Assembly (NCBI RefSeq): GCF_940670685.1
Contig: NZ_OW711693.1
Span: 1,488,001-1,552,000, forward strand
Length of the DNA: 64,000 bases
Direction: 5' to 3'
DNA from: Anaeropeptidivorans aminofermentans
Lineage (GTDB): Bacteria; Bacillota; Clostridia; Lachnospirales; UBA5962
Positions 15,731 to 60,884 of this stretch are shown piece after piece. A program made the translations under genes and the position numbers. The notes below the pieces were generated by a model. The model was not told the DNA's origin and searched no databases. It saw nothing but the letters and a program-made list of their open reading frames with translations. How positions within the stretch are numbered: position 1 is the stretch's first letter; every line of letters starts with the position of its first letter.

Positions 15731-15751
15731 TCGGTAATACAAGGAGATATT

Positions 15752-16513: not shown

Positions 16514-16580
16514 AAAACCTTTCTATATATTAAAAGGTGAGATGTTTACATAGTTTATTGCAGTAAAGGAGTAGATTTTA

Positions 16581-43954: not shown

Positions 43955-44746
43955 ATGCTTAATGTTTCAATGCAAAATGTTAGTTTTTATTATAATTCCG
44001 ATGAAGGTGCAGTGCTTGGGGATATCAATATGGAGGTAAAGGCCGGTGATTTCGTCTGTCTTTTAGGGCAGTCCGGCTGCGGCAAAAGTACATTGCTGCG
44101 TCTTCTTGCAGGTCTTGAAAAGCCTACGGGAGGGCAGATGCTTGTAGACGGTAAAGCAATAAATGGGGCCAGCCTTCAAAGAGGCGTAGTTTTTCAGGAT
44201 TACGGTCTTTTTCCCTGGATGACAGCGGGGGAAAATATAACGATTGCTCTTGAATATCGTTTTCCTGAAATGAAAAAATCAGAGAGAAAAGAGAGGGCAC
44301 TCCATTGGATGCGTAATGTAGATATGGATGAGTCTTTATTTGATAAATTGCCGGGAGAGCTTTCAGGAGGCCAAAAGCAGCGCTGCGGCATAGCAAGAGC
44401 CTTTGCTATTGACCCGCCTATATTGTTAATGGACGAGCCTTTTGGCTCTTTAGATGCAGTTACCAAATCAAAATTACAGGATTTGGTTTTACGGCTATGG
44501 CAGCAGGAAGGGGATAAAAGAAAAACCATATTCTTTGTAACCCATGAAGTTGATGAAGCATTGCTTTTGGCTACCCATATATCGGTTTTCAGCCAGTCTC
44601 CGGCGAGTATTATGTATTCTCATTCCTTTGATGAGGGCATTAAGCCTACCAGAAAAAATATGCATACTGAACCGGAAATCGTGGATTTGCGTAATTATCT
44701 TATAAAGCTCATACATAAAGATGCAGAAGAGAGAGCATACAAATAG
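43955..44746 (+). CDS. ABC importer ATPase, second SsuB/TauB-like system
   Basis: First gene of the methyl-transfer locus. Walker A GQSGCGKST, Q-loop VFQDYGLFPW, signature LSGGQKQRCGIARA, Walker B ILLMDEPFGSLDA and H-loop VTHEVDEA. It is a clear paralogue of the ATPase at 13189 (shared GASLxxGxVFQDYGLFPWMTAGENI). 150 bp before its binding protein. In the SsuB/TauB/ThiZ group the substrates are small organics; here the downstream corrinoid methyltransferase genes suggest a methylated compound (for example a methylamine-, betaine- or methoxy-type molecule), which is inference. Confidence 0.88.
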   Translation: MLNVSMQNVSFYYNSDEGAVLGDINMEVKAGDFVCLLGQSGCGKSTLLRLLAGLEKPTGGQMLVDGKAINGASLQRGVVFQDYGLFPWMTAGENITIALEYRFPEMKKSERKERALHWMRNVDMDESLFDKLPGELSGGQKQRCGIARAFAIDPPILLMDEPFGSLDAVTKSKLQDLVLRLWQQEGDKRKTIFFVTHEVDEALLLATHISVFSQSPASIMYSHSFDEGIKPTRKNMHTEPEIVDLRNYLIKLIHKDAEERAYK

Positions 44747-44898
44747 GCTCTATAAAAGACCGCATTATTATTTTTAGGTAATAAAATTTAAAGAGAAAAG
44801 GTAAGTGAAACATTTACTTTTATCTAAATTTTTATATACAGATACTGAAAATTTTTTAGGACAGAAAATCTCATTAAAGACTACGGAGGATATTATTT

Positions 44899-46074
44899 AT
44901 GAATTTTTTCAAAACAACACGTATATTTATGCTTATCTGCGCATCAGCTTTATTCTTAACGAGCTGCGGCAGTAAAGCTGAAAATGCGGCTCCTGCTGAA
45001 AAGCCGGCTGAATCTGCGGCTCCTGCTGCAAATGCTGAGACTGAGGCAAAAGATTCTGAGAAAAAGGCCGCACCAGAAGACGTATTAAAGGTTCGCGTCG
45101 GTGCCCAGCCTACATCGGGACAGGTATTTCAGTTTATTGCAGAAAAGCACGGCTTTAATAAAGAAGAGGGCGTTGAAGTTGAAATGGTTTGGCTCAGTAA
45201 TCTCTCAGATGCCGCTTCTGCTCTTACGGCAAATCAGGTGGATGTTTTATCTACATATGGAACAGGCGGGCCGCTTACTCAAATTGCAAACGGCCAGGAT
45301 TTTAACATGTTTGCAGGATATATGATCATCGGTGAAACCCCTGTATATGGCAAACCTGAAACAGAATATAAGGATTTATCCAGCCTTAAAGGCAAAAAAA
45401 TCGGCATAACCAGAGGCGGTACTCCAGATATAGTGCTGAAAGGTATTTTATACGATGAGGGCTATTCATTTACTTACGGAGGCACAACCACTATCGGTAC
45501 AGAAAATGACCCTGATATGATTGAATTCATAGAGTACAAGAAAAACACCGACGTATTGCAGGCCATAGCCAAAGGAGAAGTTGATTTCGGCGCAACAGCT
45601 ACAGGATATCAAATTCAGGCCAGAGATTTGGGGCTTGAAGTGAAAATGTGGCCGGATGAATTATGGAACAATCATTCTTGCTGCCGTATGCTTGCCACAA
45701 ATACATATGTTGACAATAATGAAGAGGCCCTTTACCGCTTATTGCGTTCTTATTTACGGGCAGAAGAATATATGCAGGACAATATGCAGGAAGTTTCCGA
45801 CTTGGTTGTAGAAAACCTTGATTTGCAAAAAGAAACTGCAGATAGTTTTGTATTAAGCCCTCACATGAAATATGATACGGACCCGTACACAAAAAGTGTT
45901 GAAGTAATGTGGAATAAAATGGCTAATTTTGGTTATTTGCAGACTGGTGAGATTGATTTAAAGGACCATATGAACTCTGAGATTTATAAACGTGCCCTTG
46001 AATCTCTTATTGAAGATTATCCAGACAGCCAGTTTTTTAAAGATAAAATGGAGCAGTTTAATTCTAATAATTAG
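44899..46074 (+). CDS. ABC importer substrate-binding lipoprotein, second system
   Basis: Type II signal peptide with lipobox LTSC (Cys23), an Ala/Glu/Pro-rich spacer to ~60, then an NMT1/SsuA-like fold opening VRVGAQPTSGQVFQFIAEKHGFNKEEGVEVEMV. It shares the NHSCCRM motif and a DHMNSEIYKRALESLIE ending with the binding protein at 14585, so the two diverged from one ancestor. 153 bp after the ATPase gene. The ligand is unknown; gene order implies it delivers the substrate for the methyltransferases downstream. Confidence 0.87.
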   Translation: MNFFKTTRIFMLICASALFLTSCGSKAENAAPAEKPAESAAPAANAETEAKDSEKKAAPEDVLKVRVGAQPTSGQVFQFIAEKHGFNKEEGVEVEMVWLSNLSDAASALTANQVDVLSTYGTGGPLTQIANGQDFNMFAGYMIIGETPVYGKPETEYKDLSSLKGKKIGITRGGTPDIVLKGILYDEGYSFTYGGTTTIGTENDPDMIEFIEYKKNTDVLQAIAKGEVDFGATATGYQIQARDLGLEVKMWPDELWNNHSCCRMLATNTYVDNNEEALYRLLRSYLRAEEYMQDNMQEVSDLVVENLDLQKETADSFVLSPHMKYDTDPYTKSVEVMWNKMANFGYLQTGEIDLKDHMNSEIYKRALESLIEDYPDSQFFKDKMEQFNSNN

Positions 46075-46416
46075 AGGCTGTTCATACTAATTCAGCAGGT
46101 TCTAAAAGGCCGATATTCGCTGCTTGCAGATGTTTCATAAGGAAGGTTTTTTCAGAAAACATCAATAATTTTTTCCTTCGGGCTGGATGTGACCTCTTTT
46201 ATCTGCCTCTTATTTAGCATGAATATGCCGCGAACATAATTAAAGCTATAAAATAAAGTCAATATAAGAAAAATCATATAGCAGGGGTGTGTATATGCAA
46301 TTATACGCATCCTATTGCTGTTGTACTGCGTCAAACCTTATAATGTTTTAGGTATTTTAAAAGAAAAAGATCTATTTTATATTTAAAAATGCATTAAGAT
46401 AAGGAGCTTAGCATCA
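46075..46416. other. Gap inside the second importer operon
   Basis: About 340 bp between binding-protein and permease genes, AT-rich. No terminator, repeat family member or open frame of note was found. AAGGAG at 46401-46406 serves the permease. Confidence 0.45.
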
Positions 46417-47181
46417 ATGAAAATCCGCAATTATATTAAAAACAGGCTAGGAATCATTCTTATATTTATAGGAATTTTGCTTACATATATTTTGCTTACA
46501 GATGTTTTTAATCTTTTGAACCCTTTCCTTTTTTATAGCATAAGCGCTATTCCCCCGCTTTTTAAAGACTATCTTCCTCAGTTAATGGAAGGCTTGAAAA
46601 GCTCAATGTCTTTATTAATTATTGCCTATTTTATGGCTCTTTTTTGCGGAATATCCATTGGTGCCTTTATAGGCTCCAAAAATTTAGTACGCAAAAATCT
46701 GACCCCCTATATTAATGCGTTCAGTGCAATTCCTGTTACGCTTCTTACGCCTTATGCTATAAATATTCTTCCGTCATTTCGTATCGCGTCTATTTTTATA
46801 ATATTTTTAGGCTGCTTTTGGATTATTTTAGGAACTACCATAACAGCGGTGATGACAATTGACAGAAGATATTTGGAAAATGCCTCTACTCTTGAAGTTC
46901 CTAAGGTTCACAGATTATTCCGTATTATTTTACCGGCGGCTTCTCCGGCCATTCTTACAGGGTGTACCATAGCCCTTAAGCTGGCATTTATGCTGCTTGC
47001 TGTTGCTGAAATGTTTGGCGCTACCTCCGGTATGGGCTATTTTATACAGTATTATTCAGATTTCGGACGTTTTGACCTGGTAGCCGTAGGCTTTTTGTTT
47101 ATGTCCATGGTTCTGGTAATTATTTTGTATTTATTTGATTTTATAAAAGCGAAAATATTATATTGGACAACCAATAATTAA
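46417..47181 (+). CDS. ABC importer permease, second SsuC/TauC-like system
   Basis: About six membrane spans with a BPD_transp_1 core; coupling-helix region LENASTLEVPKVHRLFRIILPAASPAILTG equivalent to the EAA loop. Paralogue of the permease at 15752 (shared T(I/M)TAVMTIDRRYLENA / TGIMTIDKRYLDKA). 23 bp before the first methyltransferase gene with no terminator between, so importer and enzymes form one transcript. Confidence 0.87.
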   Translation: MKIRNYIKNRLGIILIFIGILLTYILLTDVFNLLNPFLFYSISAIPPLFKDYLPQLMEGLKSSMSLLIIAYFMALFCGISIGAFIGSKNLVRKNLTPYINAFSAIPVTLLTPYAINILPSFRIASIFIIFLGCFWIILGTTITAVMTIDRRYLENASTLEVPKVHRLFRIILPAASPAILTGCTIALKLAFMLLAVAEMFGATSGMGYFIQYYSDFGRFDLVAVGFLFMSMVLVIILYLFDFIKAKILYWTTNN

Positions 47182-47204
47182 TTGAATTTGTTAGGAGAGA
47201 TACT

Positions 47205-48293
47205 ATGATAGACCGTATGACGCCTTCACAACGTGCTGCCGCTATTGCGAAAGGAGAATCCGCAGACCGCCTGCCATGCAATCCAAATGTCGCCAACGGG
47301 GTTGCCCGGGTATATGGCTGCAAAATATCAGAATTTAATACGGACGCCAAAACGCTGGCAAAAGCACAAATTGCTTCTTACCGTAAATTCGGCTATGACA
47401 GTATCCGTATTTTTACCGATCTTTTCCCTTGGGCTGAAGCTATGGGCGCAACCGTTGTAAAGCCGGATGATAATACGGTTGATTTAGATAAGCCTGCAAT
47501 AAGCGATGAAAAGGAAATTTCAAGGCTTATGCCGGCAAATCCTTATAAAGACGGCAGGCTTCCCATTCAATTGGATGCAATGAAATACCTTGTTGATGAA
47601 GTCGGCAGTGAAATAGGCTGCTCCTTTGGCGTCGTAGGACCCTTTACAAATGCTTTCTTTTTGCTGGGGGTTGAAAAAACTTTGACATGCATCCGCAAAA
47701 ATCCTGAGGCGATACATGAGCTTTGTAAAATTTCTTTGGAAACGGTTAAAGCCTATACGGAAGCAGGTATAAAAATAGGGCTTACGCCTTCAATTTCAGA
47801 GCCCATGTCTTCCTGTACGGTAGTAAGCCCTAAGGTATTCAAGGAATTTTCATTGCCTTATTTGAAAGAGCTGGTAGAGTTCATAAAGGAAAAGGGCAAG
47901 GGCGTTATCATTCATATATGCGGCCAGACAAATAAAATATGGCCCGACCTTGCAGAAATGGGCATTGCGGGAATGAGCATAGATAACGTGGCAAGCCTTA
48001 CCGAGTGCAAAAACATCATAGGAGACAAAACAAAAATACTTGGCAATGTTGACCCGGGAGGAATCATGTATTCAGGAACGCCGTTTGATGTAAGGCTAAA
48101 AACACTGGAATGCATTCAAGAAGGTTATGACAATCCGAAAGGTTATGTAGTTATGTCCGGCTGCAGCCTTCCTGTTGACTCACCTTTTGATAATATTAAG
48201 GAAATGATGGATACTGTACGCGATGTGGGATATCCCGTCAATATAAACAAAGTAGAAGCTATGATTGCCGACTGCAAGAAAAAAATCATATAG
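47205..48293 (+). CDS. MtaA/UroD-fold cobamide methyltransferase 1
   Basis: Uroporphyrinogen-decarboxylase-fold methyltransferase of the kind that moves methyl groups to or from a corrinoid protein (MtaA, MtbA, CmuA relatives). The zinc/thiol site is complete: His237-x-Cys239 (IHICGQ) and Cys320 (MSGCSLP). At 362 residues it is full length. It is 23 bp after the importer permease and directly before the corrinoid protein, its obvious partner. It may be the substrate-specific methyltransferase or the one that hands methyl to a thiol acceptor; the sequence does not tell which. True heme-pathway UroD lacks the H-x-C...C zinc triad, so that role is rejected. Confidence 0.87.
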   Translation: MIDRMTPSQRAAAIAKGESADRLPCNPNVANGVARVYGCKISEFNTDAKTLAKAQIASYRKFGYDSIRIFTDLFPWAEAMGATVVKPDDNTVDLDKPAISDEKEISRLMPANPYKDGRLPIQLDAMKYLVDEVGSEIGCSFGVVGPFTNAFFLLGVEKTLTCIRKNPEAIHELCKISLETVKAYTEAGIKIGLTPSISEPMSSCTVVSPKVFKEFSLPYLKELVEFIKEKGKGVIIHICGQTNKIWPDLAEMGIAGMSIDNVASLTECKNIIGDKTKILGNVDPGGIMYSGTPFDVRLKTLECIQEGYDNPKGYVVMSGCSLPVDSPFDNIKEMMDTVRDVGYPVNINKVEAMIADCKKKII

Positions 48294-48306
48294 GGGGAAT
48301 TCTATT

Positions 48307-48960
48307 ATGGCAAGCAAGGAAGAGTTGTTAGAAGAGCTTTCTCGTTGTGTATTGGAAATGGAAGATGATGAAATATCGGAGGTGGCTAAGGCGTATGCAG
48401 ATGCAGGGTATGATCCTTTAGACGGCATATTAAAAGGCCTTGTAGACGGCATGAATAAAGCTGCCCAGCTTTATGAGGAGGAAGAGTATTTTTTGCCGGA
48501 GCTTTTAATTTGCTCTGCTGCTATGTATAACGGTTTAGATGTTCTTCGCCCTCTGCTTTCCCAGGAAAAATTTGGCAACGGTCACAAAATTGTGATGGGG
48601 GTAGTTCAAGGCGATACCCATGATATAGGAAAAAATCTGGTGAAAATTATGCTGGAATCAGCCGGCTATGAGCTTATTGACCTTGGCAGGGATGTGCCGG
48701 TAGAGGAATTTGTAAAGGCTGTTAAGGAATATAATGCAAGCGTTTTAGGCATGTCTACTCTTATGTCCACATCCATGAATAATATGAAAAAAGTAATTGA
48801 GCTTTTAGAAGCGGAAGGCATCAGAAGCAATGTAAAGGTAGTTGTAGGCGGCGGCCCGATTTCCAGAAGCTTTGCCGATAAAATTGGCGCCGACGGGTAT
48901 TCCGTCAATGCAATCGAGGCAGTGCATCTGGTTGATAAATTAGTCGGAATATCCCGGTAA
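48307..48960 (+). CDS. Corrinoid protein (MtbC/MtaC-type, B12-binding)
   Basis: Methyl carrier of the system. N-terminal helical cap (~1-85), then the Rossmann B12-binding domain with the base-off signature D-x-H-x-x-G: Asp103, His105 (lower cobalt ligand), Gly108 in GDTHDIGKNLV, followed by the Ser/Thr segment GMSTLMST and the VVVGGGPIS loop. ATG at 48307 follows AGGGGGAATT; an upstream in-frame ATG (48265) would overlap the previous gene and lacks a site. 217 residues, typical for MtaC/MtbC. Sits between methyltransferase genes, ready to shuttle methyl between them. Confidence 0.92.
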   Translation: MASKEELLEELSRCVLEMEDDEISEVAKAYADAGYDPLDGILKGLVDGMNKAAQLYEEEEYFLPELLICSAAMYNGLDVLRPLLSQEKFGNGHKIVMGVVQGDTHDIGKNLVKIMLESAGYELIDLGRDVPVEEFVKAVKEYNASVLGMSTLMSTSMNNMKKVIELLEAEGIRSNVKVVVGGGPISRSFADKIGADGYSVNAIEAVHLVDKLVGISR

Positions 48961-48966
48961 TTTGAT

Positions 48967-49097
48967 GATAAAGTAAAACAACTTTAAAGTAGTAACAAAA
49001 CCTATTTTTCATAAGCGGCTTAATATAATAGAAACGCTTCTATTAAGCCATTCAAAATATACGGTTTTTGTTACTGTAATCTAATTGTTTTACTATA
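48967..49097. repeat. MITE-like hairpin repeat, family 1, copy d
   Basis: Same inner order as copies a and c: ACAAAACCTATTTTTCATAAGCGGCTTAAT ... ATTAAGCCATTCAAAATATACGGTTTTTGTTACTG, ending TTGTTTTACTATA. Inserted between the corrinoid protein gene and the next UroD-fold gene, i.e. inside the methyl-transfer operon; it may act as a processing or attenuation hairpin there. Confidence 0.75.
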
Positions 49098-49166
49098 AGG
49101 GGTATAAAGGCGATAAAATTCGTTTTTATCTATATGCTTTTTATATATAAGTAGTGGGGTTTTGTG

Positions 49167-50027
49167 ATGGATAAAATATCCGATTTTAAATGTGTTCACA
49201 GCAATGCAGACGATATTTCACTTGTTAGTGACGATAATAGTATAAAATTTCCGCAAGCTTATCAAAAAGCCGAAGATATGGCAGAGCTTGCTCTTAAAAT
49301 AAAAACAGCCGGTAACAGTCCCTTATGCATACTGCCGTTTTGCCATACAATAGAAGCGGAATGCTTCGGTGCGTTTATCAATTTCGGAGACGCCCTGTTT
49401 GGCCCCAGAGTAAAAGAGTATAAGGTAAGGAATATAAAGGATTTAGAGATGCTTTTGCCTATAGATTTTACAATGGGAAGAATTGCAGAAGTTATTTCTG
49501 CCTGTAAAATGTTAAAGCAGGCAGGGGAAACCGTATGTTTGGAAATAAGCGGCCCCATGACCATACTTAATAATTTAATAGAGCTTAAAGAGGTATTCAA
49601 GGCATGGAGAAAAGATAAAGAATACATGTTGAGAATACTTGATTTTTTAAATGGGCAAATGCTTATTTATGCTGATATTGCTAAAAATTATGCAGATATT
49701 ATATGCTATGCCGATCCCATAGCATCTATTGATATACTAGGCCCCAATATGGCGAAGGAATGGACAGAGTTTTCTACGGTGCCTTTTTTAAAAAAGCTTT
49801 TAGACTGTATAAATAATTATTCAGTCATTCAGATTTGCCCGAAAATAACCGTTATGCTGATAGGCTTCGGCTTTGCAAGATATGAGGATTTCTATATACC
49901 TGAGCCTATGAAATTTTCAGAAGCCTGTATTAAATATAAGGATATTATAAAAATAACAGGCCAAAACTGCGTGAAAAATAAAGATTATATAGTAGGGGAT
50001 AAATTTAAAGAAATTATTTTAAACTAG
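49167..50027 (+). CDS. UroD-fold protein with altered zinc-site histidines
   Basis: Short (286-residue) member of the UroD/MtaA superfamily. The site that normally reads H-x-C is Gln222-Ile-Cys224 (VIQICPK), and the final ligand region reads TGQNC (Gln266, Cys268), so cysteines stay but both expected histidines are Gln. It therefore may bind zinc weakly or use a different chemistry, or be a regulatory/structural subunit. ATG at 49167 preferred to GTG 49164. Its TAG stop (50025-50027) coincides with the first bases of a family-2 repeat element. It is not redundant with its neighbours and sits between corrinoid protein and the third UroD-fold gene. Confidence 0.72.
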   Translation: MDKISDFKCVHSNADDISLVSDDNSIKFPQAYQKAEDMAELALKIKTAGNSPLCILPFCHTIEAECFGAFINFGDALFGPRVKEYKVRNIKDLEMLLPIDFTMGRIAEVISACKMLKQAGETVCLEISGPMTILNNLIELKEVFKAWRKDKEYMLRILDFLNGQMLIYADIAKNYADIICYADPIASIDILGPNMAKEWTEFSTVPFLKKLLDCINNYSVIQICPKITVMLIGFGFARYEDFYIPEPMKFSEACIKYKDIIKITGQNCVKNKDYIVGDKFKEIILN

Positions 50028-50205
50028 GGCGTGTCTGAAAAGTCCAAAACATAGTCTGTTTTGCCATAGAAATGTGACTTCATCTTCAAAAATATTTGAA
50101 ACAGTTCTGCTGTTTCTGCATTTTTTCTCAGGATTTTGCTATGCAAAGCTATATTTCCCGTGGCCGGAATTCTTTTTGATTTGACTATTTTAGACACTGC
50201 CTAAG
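50026..50205. repeat. Short inverted-repeat-ended element, family 2, copy B
   Basis: About 180 bp, starting AGGGCGTGTCTGAAAAGTCC and ending GACTATTTTAGACACTGCCTAA, imperfect inverted ends. Corresponds to copy A at 14151-14447 with an internal deletion. Its first bases supply part of the stop codon of the preceding gene. Confidence 0.65.
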
Positions 50206-50273
50206 GGATTTAATGCTTAAAGAGTCTCTTAGGATAATACTGTATAGATACTTTAATCTTTTGCTTTTTAGAA

Positions 50274-50412
50274 TATAGTAAAATTTCTATAAAGAAGGAA
50301 CAAAAACCTATTCATTAAAGGCTCAAAAACACGGATTTCCTTCGGAAAGGGTACATTTTTAAGCCTACAGGAATATACGGTCTTGTTACTGTTTAACTTG
50401 AAATTTACTATA
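50274..50412. repeat. MITE-like hairpin repeat, family 1, copy e (divergent centre)
   Basis: 139 bp, ends TATAGTAAAATTTC / GAAATTTACTATA. The centre differs from the other copies but keeps pairing: GGCTCAAAAA / TTTTTAAGCC, closed by an inner CCTTCGG tetraloop-type turn. The second repeat element in the same intergenic gap as family 2 copy B. Confidence 0.75.
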
Positions 50413-50445
50413 AAGCAAAACATCGATTTTAATAAGGAGATTTAG

Positions 50446-51477
50446 ATGATAACAGAAAAATCAAGGCTGATATCTGCCATGAATCTTAAAAAAGTGGACA
50501 GGCCGCCCTGTATATGTCCCGGCGGAATGATGAATATGGTGACTAAAGGGGTTATGGAAAATTCAAAGATATTTTGGCCTGATGCTCATTTAGACCCAAC
50601 GCTTATGGCAGAGCTTACAAAAGCAGTTCATGATAATAATTGCTTCGAAAATTACGGAGTACCCTTTTGCATGACGGTTGAAGTAGAAGCAATGGGTGCA
50701 GTGGTAGATATGGGTTCTATCAATTATGAGCCTCATGTCATAGGCTATGCCATAGATTCCGTAAGCCATTGGCAGCAGCTTAAAAAACCGGATTGCAATA
50801 AAGGGCGCATGAAAGTTGTTCTTGATGCAATAAAAGTTTTAAAAGGATATGGCGGCGATGTGCCGATTATTGCAAATTTAACAGGGCCGGTAAGCATAGC
50901 TTCTTCTCTTATGGAGCCTTCCGTATATTATAAGGAGCTTAGAAAAAATAAAGAGCAGGCTCACGAGCTTATGGAGTTTATTTGTGAGCATCTGATAGAG
51001 TTTGGCGTTAAGCAAATTGAGGCAGGGGCTGATATTATTGCTATCTCCGACCCCAGCGGCACAGGAGAAATATTAGGCCCTAAGTTTTTTGACGAATTTG
51101 TTGTCAGATATATCAATAAAGTTATAAACGGCATTAAAGAAAAAACAGAACGGGCTGAATTTATAGTGCATATCTGCGGACAAATGAAAAAGGTATATAC
51201 CAATCTTTCTTCCATTGATTGCAATACCATAAGCCTGGATGCCATTGTCAACTTAAAAGAAGCCAAGAAAAATCTTCCGGAAAAAGCCATTATGGGTAAT
51301 GTAAGCACCTACGCTATAGAATTTAGCACTGCGCCTAAGGTTGCCGATATAACAAGATATTGTATGAGGTCCAGTTCAAGTATCATATCGCCTGCTTGCG
51401 GATTGGGAAACAATTCTCCTCTTGCAAATCTTCAGGCTATGCTAAAGACGGTAAAAGAGGAAGGTATTGATGAGTAA
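50446..51477 (+). CDS. MtaA/UroD-fold cobamide methyltransferase 2
   Basis: Third UroD-fold gene of the locus, 343 residues, with a full zinc/thiol site: His242-x-Cys244 (IVHICGQ) and Cys318 (SPACGLG). Opening RLISAMNLKKVDRPPCICPGGMMN is the usual MtaA/MtbA N-terminus. Distinct from methyltransferase 1, so one may load the corrinoid protein from the substrate and the other unload it to a thiol such as coenzyme M analogue, homocysteine or tetrahydrofolate; acceptor identity cannot be read. Its stop overlaps the start of the activator gene by 8 bp. Confidence 0.85.
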   Translation: MITEKSRLISAMNLKKVDRPPCICPGGMMNMVTKGVMENSKIFWPDAHLDPTLMAELTKAVHDNNCFENYGVPFCMTVEVEAMGAVVDMGSINYEPHVIGYAIDSVSHWQQLKKPDCNKGRMKVVLDAIKVLKGYGGDVPIIANLTGPVSIASSLMEPSVYYKELRKNKEQAHELMEFICEHLIEFGVKQIEAGADIIAISDPSGTGEILGPKFFDEFVVRYINKVINGIKEKTERAEFIVHICGQMKKVYTNLSSIDCNTISLDAIVNLKEAKKNLPEKAIMGNVSTYAIEFSTAPKVADITRYCMRSSSSIISPACGLGNNSPLANLQAMLKTVKEEGIDE

Positions 51478-53269
51478 GATAACTGTTTTGCCAAGCAATG
51501 AAACAATTGAATACCAGCATGGGAAGAGCCTTTTGGATATATTATGCGACAAGGGATTGTTATCGGAAAGCCCTTGCGGCGGCAAAGGCATATGCGGAAA
51601 ATGCAAAATTGTAGTTGAAGGAGATTTACCGGAAGTTACGCAAACGGAGACTTCAGTGTTAAGCTCACGAGAACAAAAAGAAGGCTATCGTCTAGCCTGC
51701 ATCGTTTACCCAGAAGGAGATATAAAAGTAAAGCTTGAAAATAAGCATACGACCCATAGGATTCTTACCGGCGGATATATGCCTGATTTTGAACTGAACC
51801 CTTTTATAAGGAAGGTTCCTTTTACTCTGGAAAGCCCCAAGATAGGCGAACATATTTCCTATGAGGAAATTTTTCTTAAAAACACCGGCGCTTTAGAAAT
51901 AGAATACAACGCCCTTAAAGTTCTTCCTACAGAGCAAGGTGAATATACTTTGGTACTTGCAGGAAATAAAATAATTCACATTGAAGCAGGGGATACCTCT
52001 AATAAGCGCTATGGCATCGCGATTGATATAGGCACAACTACAGTTGTCGCCTCTTTAATAGATATGAATACAGGTGAGGAACTGGCCAGCGAATCAAGTA
52101 TAAACACCCAAAAGCAATATGGCTTAGATGTGATAACAAGAATTACATATGTCCTTGAAAATCCTCTTGAGGGATTGAAAAATCTGCAAAATAATATTGT
52201 TCATTGCCTCAATAAGATGGTTGAGCTTCTCTGCGTCAAAACCCATATAGATAAGAAGAATATATATGAGGCAGCCGTTGCCGCAAATAATACCATGCTT
52301 CATCTGCTCCTTGGGGTTCAGCCGGATTCCATAGGCTGCTCTCCCTTTGCGCCTGTATTTAACGGTGCAAAATACATAAAGGCATCTTTGGCAGGATTAG
52401 AACTGCCTGAATACGCAATGCTCTACTGCCTTCCGTCCGTATCATCTTATATAGGTTCGGATATCGTTGCCGGGGCTTATGTAAGTCAAATTTATAAAAA
52501 GCAGGGAAATGTACTTTTTATTGATATAGGGACAAACGGAGAAATACTGTTTTCTTCAAATGGAAAAATAGTATCCTGCTCATGTGCGGCAGGCCCGGCG
52601 TTAGAAGGCATGAATATAAGCAGCGGCATGAGAGCGGCCGACGGAGCCATAGAGGAAATATCCTTGAAACAAGGAAAGTCAGATATAAAGGTTATAGGAA
52701 ATAAAGAGCCTGAGGGGATTTGCGGAAGCGGTATAATGGCCGCTTTGCGGGAATTGATACAGGAAGGCTTTATCAGAAAAGACGGTGCAATTTATAAGGA
52801 AAAGGATTTAAACGAGAAACAGCTTCCTATGCTGTGGCAGGAAGGAAAGAACAAAGGCATTATTTTATATGAGAAAAATGAAAATAAAATTATTATTACC
52901 CAGAAGGATATAAGACAGGTTCAACTGGCAAAAGGCGCAATACTTTCAGGGTTTTATGCGCTTCTTGATAATATGGGCGTTTCTATGGAGGGGCTTGATG
53001 AAATATTGATTGCCGGGCAATTCGGTTCTCATCTTACAGCCGATAGCCTTATAGGAAGCGGTATTTTGCCTCTGGGAACGGAAAATAAAATTTCATACAT
53101 CGGAAATACGTCAAAAGCCGGTGCCCAAGTTGCTCTCCTTAGCGCTGAAGCAAGATTGGAAATGGAAAAGCTTGCTTCCTACATAGATTATATTGAACTA
53201 AGCGCCATGGAGGATTATGAGAAGCTGTTTATAAAATGTCTTGAGTTTCCAGAAAAAAAGGGGGAATGA
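51470..53269 (+). CDS. Corrinoid-activating protein ([2Fe-2S] + ASKHA, RACo/RamA-like)
   Basis: Reductively reactivates oxidised corrinoid (Co(II) to Co(I)) using ATP. N-terminal plant-type [2Fe-2S] domain with Cys36, Cys42, Cys45 and Cys77 (C-x5-C-x2-C...C), a linker domain, then the ASKHA/DUF4445 ATPase (~185-600) opening YGIAIDIGTTTVVASLID with a later VLFIDIGTNGEI and GSG loop. At 600 residues it is standard RACo length. ATG 51470 (in-frame TTG 51467 is also possible) overlaps the methyltransferase stop. Its presence is strong evidence that the preceding genes perform true corrinoid methyl transfer rather than heme synthesis. Confidence 0.9.
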   Translation: MSKITVLPSNETIEYQHGKSLLDILCDKGLLSESPCGGKGICGKCKIVVEGDLPEVTQTETSVLSSREQKEGYRLACIVYPEGDIKVKLENKHTTHRILTGGYMPDFELNPFIRKVPFTLESPKIGEHISYEEIFLKNTGALEIEYNALKVLPTEQGEYTLVLAGNKIIHIEAGDTSNKRYGIAIDIGTTTVVASLIDMNTGEELASESSINTQKQYGLDVITRITYVLENPLEGLKNLQNNIVHCLNKMVELLCVKTHIDKKNIYEAAVAANNTMLHLLLGVQPDSIGCSPFAPVFNGAKYIKASLAGLELPEYAMLYCLPSVSSYIGSDIVAGAYVSQIYKKQGNVLFIDIGTNGEILFSSNGKIVSCSCAAGPALEGMNISSGMRAADGAIEEISLKQGKSDIKVIGNKEPEGICGSGIMAALRELIQEGFIRKDGAIYKEKDLNEKQLPMLWQEGKNKGIILYEKNENKIIITQKDIRQVQLAKGAILSGFYALLDNMGVSMEGLDEILIAGQFGSHLTADSLIGSGILPLGTENKISYIGNTSKAGAQVALLSAEARLEMEKLASYIDYIELSAMEDYEKLFIKCLEFPEKKGE

Positions 53270-53270
53270 A

Positions 53271-54203
53271 ATGGTTGAATTTATATTAATAACAGGCTTT
53301 CTCGGTTCAGGTAAAACCACACTCTTAAATAAAATACTTCCTTGTTTTCTAAAAAACAAGAAGACAGCTATTATAGAAAATGATTTCGGAGACACTTCCA
53401 TAGACAGCATTATTTTAAATTCCTATGGGCTGCCGATAAAAGAGCTTTCATCGGGCTGTATATGCTGTTCTCTTTCCAGTGACCTTGTAAAATTATGCGA
53501 GGATTTAATAAATTCAGAATCTCCTCAGTTGGTTTTAATTGAGCCATCGGGATTAGGAAAGACAAGCGATATAATAAATTCACTGTTTCCCCTGATAGAA
53601 AAAGGTAAAATACAAATTTCTAATATTATAAATTTGGTGGACTGCGCGAATTTCTGGGATTACATAGAAGATTTTGGTGACTTTTTCGGAAACCAAATAG
53701 AATCTGCGTCAAAATTGGTGCTATCCCATACAGAAGGCCTAAATGATAAAAGTATAAAAAAGATAAAAGAATATCTCCGGCAAATAAATGATGCTCCTTG
53801 TTTTTCAGAAAACTGGATTTATTTAAGCTCTGAAAAAGTATATGGGTATTTTAATGATTCTTTAAGCACAATAAAAGAAGAATTATGCGTTTCTTCAGAG
53901 CATGCTCACCATCATCATGACCATTCTGCCAATCAATTTATGACTGTAAGCTTAAAAGCCGACGGACTATTTGAAGAGGCAGAAATAAAAAGCATTTTTG
54001 AAGAAATAAGCCTTAATGAAAATATGACGCTTTTAAGAGCCAAGGGATTTCTCAAGTCGGCTTCAGATACTGGAAGCTTGCATTTTGATTATCTTCCCGG
54101 GCATATTAAAATATCTCCCTCAAAACATGAGGAGAGTATTATTACTTTTATAGGCAGAAATCTTAATAAAGCTCTTTTAGAGGATAAATTTAAAATATGC
54201 TGA
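53271..54203 (+). CDS. CobW/COG0523-family GTPase with His-rich loop
   Basis: G3E P-loop metallochaperone: Walker A GFLGSGKTT (Gly9-Thr17), the family CxCC metal motif Cys63-x-Cys65-Cys66 (GCICCSL), and IEPSGLG switch II. A histidine-rich loop (His211, His213-216, His218) is typical of zinc or cobalt/nickel handling. It follows the corrinoid activator with the ATG at 53271 just after GGGGG, and an earlier ATG at 53241 would overlap the previous gene. In this setting it most plausibly supplies zinc to the MtaA-type enzymes or cobalt/corrinoid to the carrier; COG0523 proteins have varied roles, so the assignment is inference. Confidence 0.83.
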   Translation: MVEFILITGFLGSGKTTLLNKILPCFLKNKKTAIIENDFGDTSIDSIILNSYGLPIKELSSGCICCSLSSDLVKLCEDLINSESPQLVLIEPSGLGKTSDIINSLFPLIEKGKIQISNIINLVDCANFWDYIEDFGDFFGNQIESASKLVLSHTEGLNDKSIKKIKEYLRQINDAPCFSENWIYLSSEKVYGYFNDSLSTIKEELCVSSEHAHHHHDHSANQFMTVSLKADGLFEEAEIKSIFEEISLNENMTLLRAKGFLKSASDTGSLHFDYLPGHIKISPSKHEESIITFIGRNLNKALLEDKFKIC

Positions 54204-54246
54204 TTTTAGAAAACAGTATACGAAATAACATGAAATCTTTATCGGT

Positions 54247-54376
54247 TATAGTAAATTTCAGATTAAACAGTAATAAAAATCGTATATTTTGAATGGCTTA
54301 AACATAGGGCTTTTATATGTTTAAGCCGTTTATGAAAAATAGATTTTTATTACATCCTTCTGTGAAATTTACTATA
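54247..54376. repeat. MITE-like hairpin repeat, family 1, copy f (inverted)
   Basis: 130 bp with ends TATAGTAAATTTCA / TGAAATTTACTATA, in the opposite orientation to copies a, c and d (the CATTCTGTGAAATTT side is at the right). Inserted between the CobW-type gene and the terminator. Confidence 0.83.
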
Positions 54377-54428
54377 AAACTAATAATTTCTGCCATATCA
54401 GGCGGGAATTAAGGAAAAATATAAAGCT

Positions 54429-54886: not shown

Positions 54887-55651
54887 CTAAAGAAATTTTG
54901 AAATTTCCCCCGATATTTCCATAAGAGAAGCGCTGATGGTTTCTACATAATCATAAGTCATTCTGTTTACAGGGCCGGATATGCTGATTGCCGCTACGAT
55001 TTTACCTGAACTGTCACTGATTCCGCACGCAACACAGCGGGCGCCTAATTCGCATTCTTCATCATCAATGGCATATCCTTTTTCTCTTACAGATTGTAAA
55101 TCGGCAATCAAGGCTTCTTTTGTAGTAATTGTATTGGGCGTAAAAACAGCGAGCCCCTTTTCAGCAATTAAACTGTCTATCATTTGTTCATCATAGTTTA
55201 GAAGCAAGCATTTGCCAACGCCTGAGCAGTGCAGTGCGGAACGCTTGCCGATATGCTGCATAATTTTAAGCATTCCGTCAGGCCCGTCAACAACATCTAT
55301 ATATAACGCCCCCATGTCATCATCAATTGCCATACATGAAGCTTCTTTGTAATTGTTGGATAATTTTAAAAGGTATGGATGCACAATGTCTCGTATATTA
55401 AACCGGGAGGCCACCATAGAGCCAATACGGGCAAATTTTAAAGTTAAGAAGTATTTTTGCGTATGATTTTCCTGAGATACATATCCATATTGCATTAGTG
55501 CAGTAATCATTCTCAAAGTTGTGCTTGTGGGCATCTCTACCATTGCGGCAATATCCATCAAACGCATGGGTTCAATAGATTGCGCGAGCACCTCAATAAT
55601 CTTCAAAGCCTTTCCTACTGACTGGTTATATTTTGTTTCACTGCTGGCCAT
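54887..55651 (-). CDS. IclR-family transcription regulator
   Basis: 254 residues: N-terminal winged helix (KALKIIEVLAQSIEPMRLMDIAAMVEMPTSTTLRMITALMQYGYV, ~12-75) and C-terminal IclR effector domain with ACGISDSSGKIVAAISISGP near the end. Start ATG 55651 with AGAGGTG upstream is preferred to the longer frame from 55714. Divergent from the aminotransferase gene; two matching palindromes (ATTTCA-N5-TGAAAT) lie between and are candidate operators. IclR regulators respond to small carbon/nitrogen metabolites such as glyoxylate, allantoin or 2-keto acids, consistent with the aminotransferase/ureide genes it faces. Confidence 0.9.
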   Translation of the reverse strand: MASSETKYNQSVGKALKIIEVLAQSIEPMRLMDIAAMVEMPTSTTLRMITALMQYGYVSQENHTQKYFLTLKFARIGSMVASRFNIRDIVHPYLLKLSNNYKEASCMAIDDDMGALYIDVVDGPDGMLKIMQHIGKRSALHCSGVGKCLLLNYDEQMIDSLIAEKGLAVFTPNTITTKEALIADLQSVREKGYAIDDEECELGARCVACGISDSSGKIVAAISISGPVNRMTYDYVETISASLMEISGEISKFL

Positions 55652-55667
55652 ATAAACACCTCTGATG

Positions 55668-55684
55668 ATTTCATTTATTGAAAT
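55668..55684. promoter_or_regulatory. Palindromic operator candidate 1 for the IclR regulator
   Basis: ATTTCATTTATTGAAAT, half-sites ATTTCA and TGAAAT five bases apart, 17 bp upstream of the IclR start codon. Same half-sites as operator candidate 2. Confidence 0.6.
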
Positions 55685-55720
55685 TATAATACAATTATTA
55701 AAATTTATTGTCAAGAGTTA

Positions 55721-55749
55721 TTGACTTTAAAAAATCAGAATGCTACAAT
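55721..55749 (+). promoter_or_regulatory. Sigma-A promoter of the aminotransferase operon
   Basis: TTGACT (55721-55726), 17-bp spacer, TACAAT (55744-55749). Near-consensus, ~50 bp ahead of the aminotransferase ATG. It lies between the two palindromes. Confidence 0.75.
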
Positions 55750-55770
55750 TATTTCATAAAATAAAACTAA

Positions 55771-55787
55771 ATTTCATTAAATGAAAT
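55771..55787. promoter_or_regulatory. Palindromic operator candidate 2 for the IclR regulator
   Basis: ATTTCATTAAATGAAAT (perfect palindrome extends one base further on each side), just downstream of the -10 box, where bound protein would block transcription of the aminotransferase gene. Confidence 0.6.
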
Positions 55788-55801
55788 TAGGAGGCGTAAT
55801 A

Positions 55802-56917
55802 ATGAAAAATTTATTGGACGGCATTCAAAACACATTGTTAATGGGGGCAGGCCCAAGCAGCGTAGCACCTAGTACTTATTATGCTTTGTCCCGCAGTACC
55901 CTTGGGCATCTGGATCCATATTTTATTAAAATTATGGACTAAGTAAAAGAAGGTCTTCGTACAATTATGGGTACAAAGAATATGCTTACAGTTCCCATGA
56001 GCGGCACGGGTTCAATTGGCATGGAAGCAGCTTTTGTAAACATGGTTGAACATGGGGATAAAGTTCTTGTACTTCAAAATGGGGTATTTGGTCAGAGGAT
56101 GGTTGATGTAGCTTCCCGTTTGGGCGCTGAGGTTACAGAGCTTGCCTTTGAGTGGGGAACACCTGTAGATATAAATAGGGTAGCTGATAAGCTTAGTAAA
56201 GAGGATTATAAAATTGTAGCAGTAGTATACGCAGAAACCTCAACAGGCGTTCGTAACCCTGTGGAAGAAATCGGCAAATTATTAAAGGATAAAGATACAT
56301 TTTTCCTTGTTGATGCGGTTACAGCCTTGGGCGGTATGCCTGTGGAAGTTGATAAATGGGGTATTGATATTTGTTATTCCGGTTCACAAAAATGCCTTTC
56401 CTGTCCTCCGGGAGCTTCACCGATTACATTTTCAGACAGAGCTGTAGAGTTTATTAATAATCGTAAATCCCATGTTCCAAACTGGTATTTGGATATGTCC
56501 TTATTGACAAAATATTGGGAAGGAAACACAAGGGTATATCATCATACGCCGCCAATCAATATGTTTTACGGTATTTACCAGGCTATACATAATATATTGG
56601 AAGAGGGCATGGAAACAGTTTATAATCGTCACCAGAATGTTCATGAACAGTTAGTAAAAGGCATAGAAGAAATGGGTTGGGAAATGCTTGTTGATAAAGA
56701 ATACAGACTTCCTATGCTAAATGCCATCGTTGTGCCTGAAGGTATTGATGAGGCCGCTTTAAGAGATAAGCTCCTTAAGGAATACAATACAGAAATCAGC
56801 GCCGGCCTCGGCACTTTAAGCGGCAAAATAGTAAGAATCGGTCTTATGGGCTATAATGCTCAGCCTTATAATGTTGAATTTGTCTTGAAAGCCATTAAAG
56901 AAATCACTTCTAAATAG
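55802..56917 (+). pseudogene. PucG-like aminotransferase with an in-frame TAA stop
   Basis: PLP-dependent class V aminotransferase of the alanine-glyoxylate / ureidoglycine-glyoxylate (PucG) type. The reading frame starts at ATG 55802 after GGAGG, then reaches TAA at 55940-55942, codon 47, in ...KIMD-stop-VKEGLRTIMGTKN..., and continues in the same frame to 56917 with intact domain features (VYAETSTGV, the PLP Lys in CYSGSQKCLS). Relatives have Glu at that position (GAA; one-base change to TAA). A downstream ATG at 55967 would make a protein lacking 55 residues. So either a recent nonsense mutation, a sequencing error or readthrough. Function if intact: transamination of glyoxylate, in purine/ureide degradation or serine metabolism. 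Confidence 0.82.
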
Positions 56918-57500
56918 TAAATCCTTAAGTATAGAAGAATCTATATTTTACTGGACTGTTGACGAGTAAATCGGGCAGTCCAGTATTTTTATCTCTTTTT
57001 TTATTTTCCAGCGAAAAACTTCTTATGAGAGACTGGCCTATTATTTATTATATTGTACCGGCGTTCAAAATAAAAAGGGCAGAGTAAATGTAAATATGTT
57101 TTACTTTTATACAGGGGCGAGATGAACAAAAATAATATCCTGTGTAATATATTCCACAGGATGGCTAAATACTGTGCATATAAAGACATAAGGGAGCCTC
57201 CGGGGTCAGTATTAATACAAACTGTCAGATTTGATAAAAATTCTTTTCATTCAGCTAAAAATACGATAGGTATTTATCCTTATTTACTAAAAAAGGACTA
57301 TAGAAGCCCAATATTTGATTCTCCAAAGCATAAATTATCAAATATAGATAATTTGAAAGCAATATAATTATCCTTAATGCGGTATACAACGCTTTATATT
57401 TTATTCATAATTAACTTATATCCAAGCGGTTAAAGGCAGCGCATGTTATATTATAAAATGTTTATTAACGCATATCCAATAATAGGAATGGAGGATTCTC
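56918..57500. other. Gap with terminator between aminotransferase and cupin
   Basis: The terminator at 56950-56990 is followed by ~500 bp with no convincing gene. An 81-codon frame at 57122-57367 has a poor, overlapping ribosome-binding site and no recognised relatives and is not called. The cupin promoter should be in the last ~150 bases. Confidence 0.45.
56950..56990 (+). terminator. Terminator of the aminotransferase gene
   Basis: ACTGGACTG / CAGTCCAGT (9-bp stem, 17-nt loop) followed by ATTTTTATC, 30-70 bp after the aminotransferase stop. Confidence 0.8.
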
Positions 57501-57857
57501 ATGGTAAAAAGACAGGGAGAGTATCGTAAAGTATATGAGCCTAATCTGAAAGGCGGAGACGGTATCATTGAAATTGAAAATCTCTTTGAACCGGAAGATT
57601 TTCACGGTATTGGCAGGCTCTACGGAATCAGTATCATTCACCCAGGCGATTCAATTGGCTGGCACCAGCATATTGGCGAGCAGGAGGCCTATTTTATACT
57701 TGAAGGTGAAGCGCTTTACAATGATAACGGTGAAGAAACCATTTTGCGGCCCGGAGATTATGCTATTTGCAGAGACGGTGAGTTTCACGCCATTAAATGT
57801 CATGGTGAGAAAACCCTTAAATACATAGCCTTTATTATGTTTACGAATAAAAAATAG
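57501..57857 (+). CDS. Small single-domain cupin protein
   Basis: 118 residues with a single cupin barrel: metal-binding motif 1 H-x-H with downstream Glu (GWHQHIGEQEAYFILEGEA), and motif 2 PGDYAICRDGEFHAIK with the second His. ATG follows GGAGGA. 10 bp ahead of the allantoinase-like gene, so probably coupled. Small cupins of this kind may act as isomerase, dioxygenase, hydrolase or regulators; here the context suggests ureidoglycine/ureide chemistry, but the (S)-ureidoglycine aminohydrolases are double cupins, so this is not one by length. Confidence 0.72.
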   Translation: MVKRQGEYRKVYEPNLKGGDGIIEIENLFEPEDFHGIGRLYGISIIHPGDSIGWHQHIGEQEAYFILEGEALYNDNGEETILRPGDYAICRDGEFHAIKCHGEKTLKYIAFIMFTNKK

Positions 57858-57867
57858 GGGGGTCAAG

Positions 57868-59220
57868 ATGGATGTAAGAGTGAAAAACGGAAGAATCGTT
57901 GATGCCGACAGGGTCTACCAAGGGGATGTATATATTAAAGATGGTAAAATAGCGGCAATTATGACAGGAGATGAGGTCATTGCCGCGGCAGAAGAAATTG
58001 ATGCAAAAGGCAATTTTATTTTTCCGGGAGGGATTGATCCTCATGTGCATTTCAATGATCCGGGATATAACTGGCGGGAAACATTTTCAACGGGCTCCAA
58101 AGCGGCAGCGGCAGGCGGCATTACTACTATAATTGACATGCCTTTGCAGAATACCCCGAATCTCCTTAACATAAACGCATATAAAAATAAGGCGGAAGCA
58201 GTTAAAAATGCTTCTTATATTGATTATTGCTTTTGGGGCGGCTTTGTAAATGATAATATTGCTGATTTTGATGGAATGGCGGATATTGGCGCAAAGCATT
58301 TTAAAGCATTTATGAGCAGTGCAGGCTCTGATTATCCGTTTGTAAATAACGGTATCATTAAAAAGGCCATGGAAAAGCTTGCTGGCACTAAACTAATGCT
58401 TGGTTTCCACTGTGAGGATTATCATATTATTGCGGAAGAAGAAAAGAAAATTACCCAGGCAGGCAAAAATACCCGAAGAGACTTTTTAGATTCTCGCCCT
58501 CTGATAGCAGAGTTCATTGCAACTAAAAATATAATCGATATGGCAGGGTATACAGGTGCGAAGGTGCATATATGCCATGTCAGCCATCCGGAGGTTGCGG
58601 AAGAAATACGAAAAGCAAAGCATCAAGGTGTAAAAATAACAGCTGAAACATGCCCCCATTATTTGGTATTTACTGAGGAAGATATGCTTGAAAAAGGAAC
58701 CCTCTTAAAATGCGCGCCTCCTTTGAGAAATGGGCAGGCAAGAGAGGGCCTCTGGCAATATGTGCTTGACGGCACGTTGGATTGTGTTGTAAGTGACCAT
58801 TCTCCGGCGTCCTCTGAGGAAAAATTAGACGATGGCGGCAAAAAAAGCATATGGGATGTTTGGAGCGGTATAAGCGGCGTTCAAACCGGTTTTCAGGTAA
58901 TATTTAACGAGGTGTACCATAAACGGAAGCTGAGTCCCTGTTATGTGGCTAAAATGATGAGCCTTGGAGCGGCAAAGGCATTTGATCTTTATCCTGCAAA
59001 AGGGGCAGTGATTCCCGGGGCTGACGGGGATTTAGCTATTGTAGACCCTGAAAAGGAGTGGGAGATTAAAGGTGATAAGCTCCTTTATACCAATAAGATT
59101 TCAGGGTTTGAGGGATTAAAGGGAAAAGGCTGCGTCGTAACCTCTATTCTGCGAGGGCAAGTAATTTATCAGAATGAAATAATTGTTGGAAAGCCGGGAT
59201 ACGGCAGGTTAATTCAATAG
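57868..59220 (+). CDS. Allantoinase-like cyclic amidohydrolase (AllB family)
   Basis: 450 residues of the dihydroorotase/allantoinase/hydantoinase group. Binuclear metal site: GGIDPHVHFNDPG (His-x-His), the carboxylated-Lys region HFKAFMSS, later metal histidines in GFHCEDYH and VHICHVSHPE, and catalytic Asp in SDHSPASSE. AGGGGGGT precedes ATG. Relatives hydrolyse allantoin to allantoate or hydantoins; dihydroorotase is less likely because the pyrimidine genes are absent. The likely pathway is purine/ureide breakdown given the PucR regulator and neighbouring amidohydrolases. Confidence 0.85.
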   Translation: MDVRVKNGRIVDADRVYQGDVYIKDGKIAAIMTGDEVIAAAEEIDAKGNFIFPGGIDPHVHFNDPGYNWRETFSTGSKAAAAGGITTIIDMPLQNTPNLLNINAYKNKAEAVKNASYIDYCFWGGFVNDNIADFDGMADIGAKHFKAFMSSAGSDYPFVNNGIIKKAMEKLAGTKLMLGFHCEDYHIIAEEEKKITQAGKNTRRDFLDSRPLIAEFIATKNIIDMAGYTGAKVHICHVSHPEVAEEIRKAKHQGVKITAETCPHYLVFTEEDMLEKGTLLKCAPPLRNGQAREGLWQYVLDGTLDCVVSDHSPASSEEKLDDGGKKSIWDVWSGISGVQTGFQVIFNEVYHKRKLSPCYVAKMMSLGAAKAFDLYPAKGAVIPGADGDLAIVDPEKEWEIKGDKLLYTNKISGFEGLKGKGCVVTSILRGQVIYQNEIIVGKPGYGRLIQ

Positions 59221-59321
59221 TAAATAAGAAGCTACTTCACAACAGTATTATAATTGGGTAAAATTAAACCAATGAAAAATTATTTAGTCTTTATAAATAG
59301 TTCTCATATTGCTGTAAGGCA

Positions 59322-59358
59322 AAAAGCAGGCTGCCGATTTGCCGGCGGCCTGCTTTTA
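59322..59358 (+). terminator. Terminator after the allantoinase-like gene
   Basis: AAAAGCAGGCTGCCG / CGGCGGCCTGCTTTT (one mismatch) around a short loop, flanked by T residues, ~100 bp after the stop. It may attenuate transcription into the next genes. Confidence 0.85.
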
Positions 59359-59387
59359 ACAATATTAAATCAGAAAGGGGATACACT

Positions 59388-60872
59388 ATGATTGATATAC
59401 TTCTGATAAACGGCACGGTTATAACAATGGATAATTCCCGGCGGATTATCGAAAATGGTGCAGTAGCCGTAAAGGGAGACCGCATCCATGAAGTAGGAAG
59501 CGCCAAAGAACTGAAAGAAAAATACGAAAAAGGTGCAAAGAAAGTAATCGATTGTTATAAAAAGCTGATACTGCCCGGATTTATCGATACCCATTCTCAT
59601 GCAGGCCATTGTATGTTCAAATCTTTGGCTTATGATACCTCAAGCTATTGGATGCCTATTATGATGGAACTCTATCATCATAATACAACCGATGAATTTT
59701 GGTATAAAGATGGCAAGCTTGCGGCCCTTGAGCGCCTTAAGTTTGGCGTAACCTGCGGCGTAAGCATGATAAGTAATGCTCAAAGAAGTGACAATGCGGT
59801 GTTTCCCGTAAACCATGGCAAAGGCTACGCAGAAGTAGGCGTACGAGAGGTTTTAGCTGTAGGGCCGTCAAATCCGCCTTTTCCAAGGCCTTTTTCAAGG
59901 CTTCTAAACGGCAAGTGGATTAAAACGGAATATACTTTTGACGAGCTTATGGACGGAACAGAAGAAACCATAAAACAGGCTAACCATATGGCTGATGATT
60001 TAATACGGGTTTTTGTAGCGCCCTTCGTTATGGTTACTTCCGTGAATCAATCAAATCAGACGGCGCCTGATGTTGCCGCAAATCTCTCTAAACACGACAG
60101 GTATATGACAGCAAAAGTTCGGGAGATGGCAAAAAAATACAATACACGGATTCATACAGAAGCTTTCGGCGGCATGATTCGCCTTGCGGCGACAGATGAA
60201 AATGCCCTTTTAGGCCCAGATGTACACGTTCAGCACTGCAGGGGCATCTCAACGGACGAAATAAGGATACTTGCCGAAACAAAAACCCATGTTTCAAGCT
60301 CTCCGTCTGCTGCTCAGATATTTAACCGCTGTCCTGTGCCGGAGCTCATGGAGTTTGGCGCCAATGTTGCTATTTCCACAGACGGTACTTCGCCCGGTGT
60401 TTCCTTCGATATGCTCATAGCCGCAAAGAATACCCGCATGCTTCATCAGGGCTTTTTACATAATACCTATTATCTGCCGCAGGGAAAGCTTTTGGAAATG
60501 ATAACCATAGACGCAGCCAAGGCCATCGGCTGGGACGATGAGCTGGGCTCTATTGAGGTAGGTAAAAAAGCGGACATCATAACAGTCAATATGAATCAGC
60601 CCCATTTGACACCGGATTTTATGCCGGTGCATAAGCTTTTGATTTTTGGTACGGGGCAGGATGTTGATAATACGATTATTAATGGAAAGCTTTTAATGGA
60701 AAACCGCAAAGTATTATCCGTTGATGAATTTGATGTGATAAAAGAGGCTGAAGAAGAATCCCTTGCGACAATTGACAGAGCAGGAGCAAGAAAATATATG
60801 GAGCCCTGCGATACTTTTTGGGGGAATACCAGAGCGTATGTGAACGAGAACCGTTATGAGCCGGTTGAATAG
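59388..60872 (+). CDS. Amidohydrolase, SsnA/TrzN-like subtype III
   Basis: 494 residues of the amidohydrolase superfamily acting on C-N or C-Cl bonds of ring or amidine substrates. The metal site is complete: GFIDTHSHAGH (His-x-His), His in RIHTEAFGG, His in VQHCRGIS and catalytic Asp in ISTDGTSPG. Preceded by AAAGGGG before ATG. 12 bp before the next amidohydrolase gene. Possible substrates include hydroxyatrazine-like triazines, guanine/cytosine or aminohydrolase intermediates of purine breakdown; a guanine deaminase role is plausible in this cluster. Confidence 0.82.
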   Translation: MIDILLINGTVITMDNSRRIIENGAVAVKGDRIHEVGSAKELKEKYEKGAKKVIDCYKKLILPGFIDTHSHAGHCMFKSLAYDTSSYWMPIMMELYHHNTTDEFWYKDGKLAALERLKFGVTCGVSMISNAQRSDNAVFPVNHGKGYAEVGVREVLAVGPSNPPFPRPFSRLLNGKWIKTEYTFDELMDGTEETIKQANHMADDLIRVFVAPFVMVTSVNQSNQTAPDVAANLSKHDRYMTAKVREMAKKYNTRIHTEAFGGMIRLAATDENALLGPDVHVQHCRGISTDEIRILAETKTHVSSSPSAAQIFNRCPVPELMEFGANVAISTDGTSPGVSFDMLIAAKNTRMLHQGFLHNTYYLPQGKLLEMITIDAAKAIGWDDELGSIEVGKKADIITVNMNQPHLTPDFMPVHKLLIFGTGQDVDNTIINGKLLMENRKVLSVDEFDVIKEAEEESLATIDRAGARKYMEPCDTFWGNTRAYVNENRYEPVE

Positions 60873-60884
60873 GGAGGAAAGGCA

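Follow-up and report, generated by a model that had tools for sequence, protein, structure and literature searches.

Nine open genes lie together on the + strand at positions 43955-54203 of the window, the 64,000-nucleotide stretch of the Anaeropeptidivorans aminofermentans genome analysed here (contig NZ_OW711693.1), and they raise the question of which methyl compound their products act on and what becomes of the methyl group. An earlier note, made from the sequence alone, had read this block as a complete corrinoid methyl-transfer system with its own importer, and the gene content and families it gave agree with the open reading frame list and with our Pfam and NCBIfam profile searches; the families present are indeed those of a corrinoid methyl-transfer system.

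43955..44746, +, ABC importer ATPase, NtrCD/TauB/SsuB type (PF00005, 121 bits; TIGR01184, 214 bits, below cut-off)
44899..46074, +, ABC importer substrate-binding lipoprotein, NMT1/SsuA/ThiY fold (PF09084, alignment, model)
46417..47181, +, ABC importer permease (PF00528)
47205..48293, +, UroD1, MtaA/CmuA-family methyltransferase, H237/C239/C320 (PF01208, 265 bits; mtaA_cmuA, 209 bits)
48307..48960, +, corrinoid carrier protein, DxHxxG (PF02607, PF02310, motif)
49164..50027, +, UroD2, short UroD-fold protein, Q223 for zinc His (PF01208, 64 bits, partial)
50446..51477, +, UroD3, MtaA-like methyltransferase, H242/C244/C318 (PF01208, 272 bits; PRK06252, 406 bits)
51470..53269, +, RACo-type corrinoid reductive activase with N-terminal 2Fe-2S domain (PF14574, PF17651, Fer2)
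53271..54203, +, CobW (COG0523) GTPase, CICC motif, His tract (PF02492, PF07683, motifs)

To call the system complete goes too far, since importer, methyltransferases, carrier, activase and CobW are present but the block holds no H4folate methyltransferase. The spacing from gene to gene is, in order, 152, 342 and 23 bp, an overlap, 203 and 418 bp, and two overlaps (the carrier frame is open from 48265, with its ATG start at 48307), and weak terminator-like matches fall at 46284 and 50098; co-transcription of the nine genes is plausible from this layout. Related intergenic repeat copies occur within the block (48997-49077 and 50274-50413) and directly after it (54246-54377), some of them inverted, e.g., 81 nt at 81% complementarity. 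Rfam gives no match in window 38000-64000, so that no riboswitch is recognized 5' of the block, and none of the block genes has an in-frame TGA; a scan of their orthologues for selenocysteine returned leader or frameshift artefacts, none convincing. The carrier DxHxxG motif, also claimed earlier, is found at residue 117, and the N-terminal 2Fe-2S motif of the activase reads CGGKGICGKC. A survey of gene order finds the same gene set in Bacillota, Synergistota, Acidobacteriota and Thermodesulfobacteriota, and this recurrence in four phyla places the block far beyond chance.

We find that this gene set is that of the type 1 mlp gene clusters (MGCs) described in a preprint by Kountz and Balskus (2023; PMC10418091), which comprise the C. 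ljungdahlii MGC and about 367 others, and the gene families suggest that the block is probably one of these clusters, equipped with its own importer. Both have a Mlp-type UroD core, a corrinoid protein and a Ram/RACE activase in one direction, both lack a folate methylase, and both belong to selenium-using hosts. By the definition of an MGC, the core genes run in one direction with no divergent gene and with gaps of at most 2 kb, the largest here being 418 bp, and no tetrahydrofolate methylase lies within 20 kb, MetH being about 370 kb away. The block differs from type 1 MGCs in adding a dedicated SsuABC/NMT1-type importer, its unusual feature, and a CobW GTPase, and in a UroD2 without the zinc His. 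A full-text search for later literature on type 1 mlp clusters found none.

This identification bears directly on the substrate, which the earlier note had left without a name, its reading to stand as long as no substrate was assigned to an orthologous cluster. The literature goes half of that way, in that a class is proposed for orthologues (methyl-selenides, partly methyl-sulfides; PMC10418091) and the exact compound is not named. Most type 1 MGCs are assigned to methyl-selenium compounds, and methyl-sulfur compounds are proposed for a minority that lacks selenium traits and has a link to MarHDK (PMC10418091). C. ljungdahlii Mlp2 transfers the methyl group of methylcobalamin to selenide in vitro with an apparent KM of about 80 µM, sulfide being a slower, weak acceptor, and the same preprint cites genetic support for dimethylselenide use by Methanococcus voltae (PMC10418091). 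SdmABC of M. voltae and M. maripaludis resembles the block in its corrinoid protein, its UroD-type methyltransferases and its tie to selenium supply, the M. maripaludis Sdm-like operon rising 5.6-7.8 log2-fold on selenium depletion (PMC11097638), but it is archaeal, has no such importer described, and is compared with the block here by description rather than by sequence.

The earlier argument that the substrate-specific enzyme must be a UroD-fold protein stands, as no MttB, MtaB or MtvB is found in the block. The zinc ligands it gave for UroD1, H237, C239 and C320, are exact in our alignment, with the ligand Cys invariant across full-length UroD1 rows, and those of UroD3 are H242, C244 and C318; a His-Cys-Cys zinc site is of the type that binds thiols and selenols. 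UroD2 reads Q223-x-C225 in place of H-x-C and retains C225 and C269, both invariant in the alignment; its counterparts in L044 (Ala), L049 (Leu) and L054 (Ile) also lack the zinc His, and several related clusters have no UroD2 at all. The predicted structure of UroD2 has a pLDDT of 92, with MtaA (4ay7) as the nearest solved structure, which UroD3 matches at E 7.7e-44. A truncated or selenocysteine-interrupted UroD2 gene is rejected, as its orthologues are equal in length and keep the third Cys, and UroD2 shows no phage kinship by PHROG match. In a tree of 84 rows, a branch with support of 100/100 has the UroD1 rows on one side, and the 25 rows of the main UroD3 group stand apart (98/82).

We infer that UroD1, with its full zinc site and adjoining carrier, would be Mlp2, that UroD3, closest to coenzyme M methyltransferases and adjoining the activase, would be Mlp3, and that UroD2, short, missing from several related clusters and with the zinc His lost, would be Mlp1, labels that rest on gene order, zinc site and MtaA/MtbA model scores. 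The zinc site that marks Mlp2 and Mlp3 is HCC in UroD1 and UroD3 and QCC in UroD2, and exceptions to it have been noted among Mlp1 proteins (PMC10418091). The MtaA/MtbA/MtsA coenzyme M methyltransferases of methanogens share the UroD fold and the His-Cys-Cys zinc site, and UroD3 clears the PRK06252 cut-off (406 against 244 bits), but the block proteins fall below the MtaA/MtbA equivalog cut-offs and sit in a Clostridia host with no methanogenesis context. Two further UroD1-type paralogues are present in the same genome, at L038 9287-10357 (38% identity) and L039 9425-10516 (35%), neither with an adjoining corrinoid protein; next to the former is a gene for a membrane protein similar to one encoded after the L037 cluster.

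The host genome, one contig of 3.76 Mb, has complete selenium machinery: SelD (one in-frame TGA), SelA and tRNA-Sec, with SelB and a glycine/sarcosine-reductase-type selenoprotein cluster adjoining SelA and with YedF adjoining SelD; inside the block there is no selenium gene. SelD passes the cut-off in 30 of the 35 genomes that carry related clusters; the remaining five are G112, G113 and G222, which belong to one UroD3 clade (SelD is present in its fourth member, G081), together with two small MAGs of uncertain completeness. The window UroD3 falls outside that clade, so that the host combines selenium machinery with an Mlp3 outside the non-selenium clade, the combination that marks selenium-type MGCs. 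In an even draw of 245 Clostridia, 55 have SelD; with the host genome left out, SelD occurs in 7 of the 10 genomes with an Mlp3 homologue (E≤1e-70) and in 47 of the 234 without one (one-sided Fisher p=0.0013, uncorrected for phylogeny), so that the association already published is seen again in another set of genomes. Genes beside related clusters encode YedF (over cut-off), a protein like cysteine desulfurase, and the double-cubane reductase and its activator (L049 and others). We conclude that the block most likely recovers selenium from methylated selenium compounds, with a probability of roughly 0.6.

The same machinery might instead take methanethiol, dimethylsulfide or methylthio-ethers for sulfur or methionine salvage, since the zinc site suits sulfur as well as selenium, the importer is distantly akin to sulfonate importers, and ClMlp2 is weakly active with sulfide (PMC10418091). 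Related clusters also lend this substrate some weight: one accompanies methionine genes (L029), and clusters of the SelD-lacking clade adjoin cysteine synthase and nitrogenase-like, MarHDK-type genes, as at L034 1218-10633 (G112), where NifH-, NifD-, NifK- and NifB-like genes and cysteine synthase stand beside the cluster in a genome without SelD, which fits the methyl-sulfur type as the literature describes it. However, the window UroD3 is not in the clade with the SelD-lacking genomes, the host has complete selenium machinery, and the block contains no methionine-salvage or nitrogenase-like gene, and we regard a methyl-sulfur substrate as possible but rather unlikely for this host.

The fate of the methyl group speaks to a different proposal, methylotrophy, in which UroD1 would take the methyl group off an imported compound (O-, N- or halomethyl) and pass it to C1 metabolism. 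UroD-fold enzymes act in this way in the CmuA and CdmB chloromethane systems and in aryl O-demethylases, which share with the block a UroD-fold demethylase, a corrinoid carrier and an activase (CdmB is a distant match of UroD1, E 8.7e-8), and both the importer in the block and the loci that pair UroD1 with importer and carrier only would suit such a role. Those systems, however, hand the methyl group to H4folate by a dedicated methyltransferase, and a genome-wide family search finds a short MetH at 1163212 (L093) as the only Pterin_bind protein in the host, with no MtrH/AcsE/CmuB/MtvA-type H4folate:corrinoid methyltransferase besides it, which argues against acetogen-, CmuA- or O-demethylase-like growth on methyl groups. 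The analogy that the earlier note drew with CmuA and O-demethylases is thus not supported where it would feed folate, for want of an MtrH/AcsE-type enzyme. In addition, O-demethylases swap the Cys zinc ligands for carboxylates (PMC10418091), but those of UroD1 are invariant in the full-length rows, and methylotrophy appears very improbable. A thiol acceptor for the methyl group is more likely, by analogy with what is proposed for mlp clusters. No separate dihydropteroate synthase was found in the host genome, which suggests folate auxotrophy.

The importer was earlier held to be part of the system, and we find its genes kept immediately 5' of UroD1 in many genomes: of 25 named loci, 15 have them upstream on the same strand within 4 kb of core genes, and these loci span Bacillota, Synergistota, Acidobacteriota and Thermodesulfobacteriota. 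UroD1 is the constant partner of importer and carrier across related loci, and L055, L061 and L063 have importer, UroD1 and carrier without UroD3 or activase nearby, minimal sets that point to UroD1 as the enzyme meeting the imported compound. We take UroD1 as the candidate substrate demethylase. The binding protein is 84% identical to a Synergistaceae MAG homologue (local match), and UroD1 is absent at E≤1e-60 from all 56 other genomes sampled in the host's family and order; since identity is this high across phyla and kin genomes have no UroD1 at that threshold, the importer-bearing cluster has likely moved between lineages.

The model of the binding protein (pLDDT 86) has the fold of ThiY, SsuA, TauA and Thi5, and because that fold is common to all four, no single ligand follows from it. 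The residues C261-C262-R263 are invariant in 14 of 14 aligned binding proteins, and it is conceivable, though doubtful, that the cross-phylum lineage has a dedicated importer whose thiophilic Cys-Cys-Arg binding protein serves a methylated compound of selenium or sulfur. The value of the motif as a sign of selenium is lowered by its occurrence in host importers outside mlp-type clusters: three of the eight NMT1-type binding proteins of the host genome have Cys-Cys-Arg, and a fourth has Cys-Cys. The two other Cys-Cys-Arg importers lie at window 13189-17933 and at L092 3012-7506 (about 1352-1356.5 kb), each adjoining a gene of about 450 aa that is presumably DUF1446/AtuA-like, and an adenosine-deaminase gene (TIGR01430 over cut-off) comes after the one at L092.

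The block also has some likeness to the selenocysteine-assisted organometallic (SAO) ABC transporters, in low-scoring similarity of the transporter subunits (SaoA 182 of 360 for the importer ATPase, SaoP 64 of 295 and SaoX 16.5 of 300 bits). A CU motif is listed for SaoB (PMC13188914), and the vicinal Cys motif of the block binding protein is reminiscent of it. SaoB itself has no match in the block or in any of 245 genomes, a weak null given that the profile matched nowhere. That the block is an SAO-related system for methylated metals or metalloids (methyl-arsenic, organomercury) is very improbable, since every SAO similarity is far below cut-off and the window block has neither a metal exporter nor an organomercury lyase beside it, even with the resemblance of the importer subunits to SaoA, SaoP and SaoX, the resemblance of CobW to a CobW-related selenoprotein (below cut-off), the invariant vicinal Cys pair, and the ArsP_2, ArsP_1 or YibE/F permeases that adjoin some related clusters.

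CobW carries a P-loop, CICC and a His tract. A CobW gene also adjoins related clusters in Hathewaya (L026/L053), L029 and L052, the products sharing 26-35% identity with the window protein; CobW is a sporadic partner, outside the core. COG0523 proteins are zinc GTPases and Mlps need zinc, which makes zinc supply a reasonable guess, and CobW may supply zinc to the methyltransferases; the putative role of a chaperone for the methyl-transfer system, given to it earlier, is possible. The nearest relative (L041) has, beside the activase gene and on the opposite strand, a gene for a ZupT-like zinc transporter (below family cut-off).

Taken with the preferred reading, selenium recovery, these assignments suggest the following mechanism. 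A methylated selenium (or sulfur) compound, imported or made in the cell, would bind the zinc of UroD1 (Mlp2), and its methyl group would pass to Co(I) of the carrier, freeing selenide (or sulfide) for SelD. UroD3 (Mlp3) would then move the methyl group from the carrier to a thiol acceptor, or demethylate a second substrate, and the activase would bring the carrier back to Co(I) after accidental oxidation. UroD2, its zinc site incomplete, would be a partner or a regulatory subunit more probably than an enzyme in its own right, and CobW might provide the zinc. On balance, the block would serve to regain selenium (or sulfur) rather than to support growth on methyl groups.

Elsewhere in the window, positions 54887-62342 encode an IclR-family regulator, a class V aminotransferase, an AllB-type allantoinase (over cut-off), two amidohydrolases and a PucR-like regulator, a purine-type catabolic neighbourhood that is probably unrelated to the block. 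At 31227-34175, two acyl-CoA dehydratase activase-related-like proteins adjoin a BadF-type activase (TIGR00241 over cut-off).

For this host genome, the finding mainly amounts to recognizing correctly a system that had been described before. Organisms commonly release selenium in methylated form, and to our knowledge its recovery by anaerobes has been little described. Genes for an importer, a candidate demethylase and a carrier are here linked across phyla in a widespread gene family; if the link to an imported selenium compound is true, importer, UroD1 and carrier would be a minimal uptake-and-demethylation module for organic selenium in bacteria.
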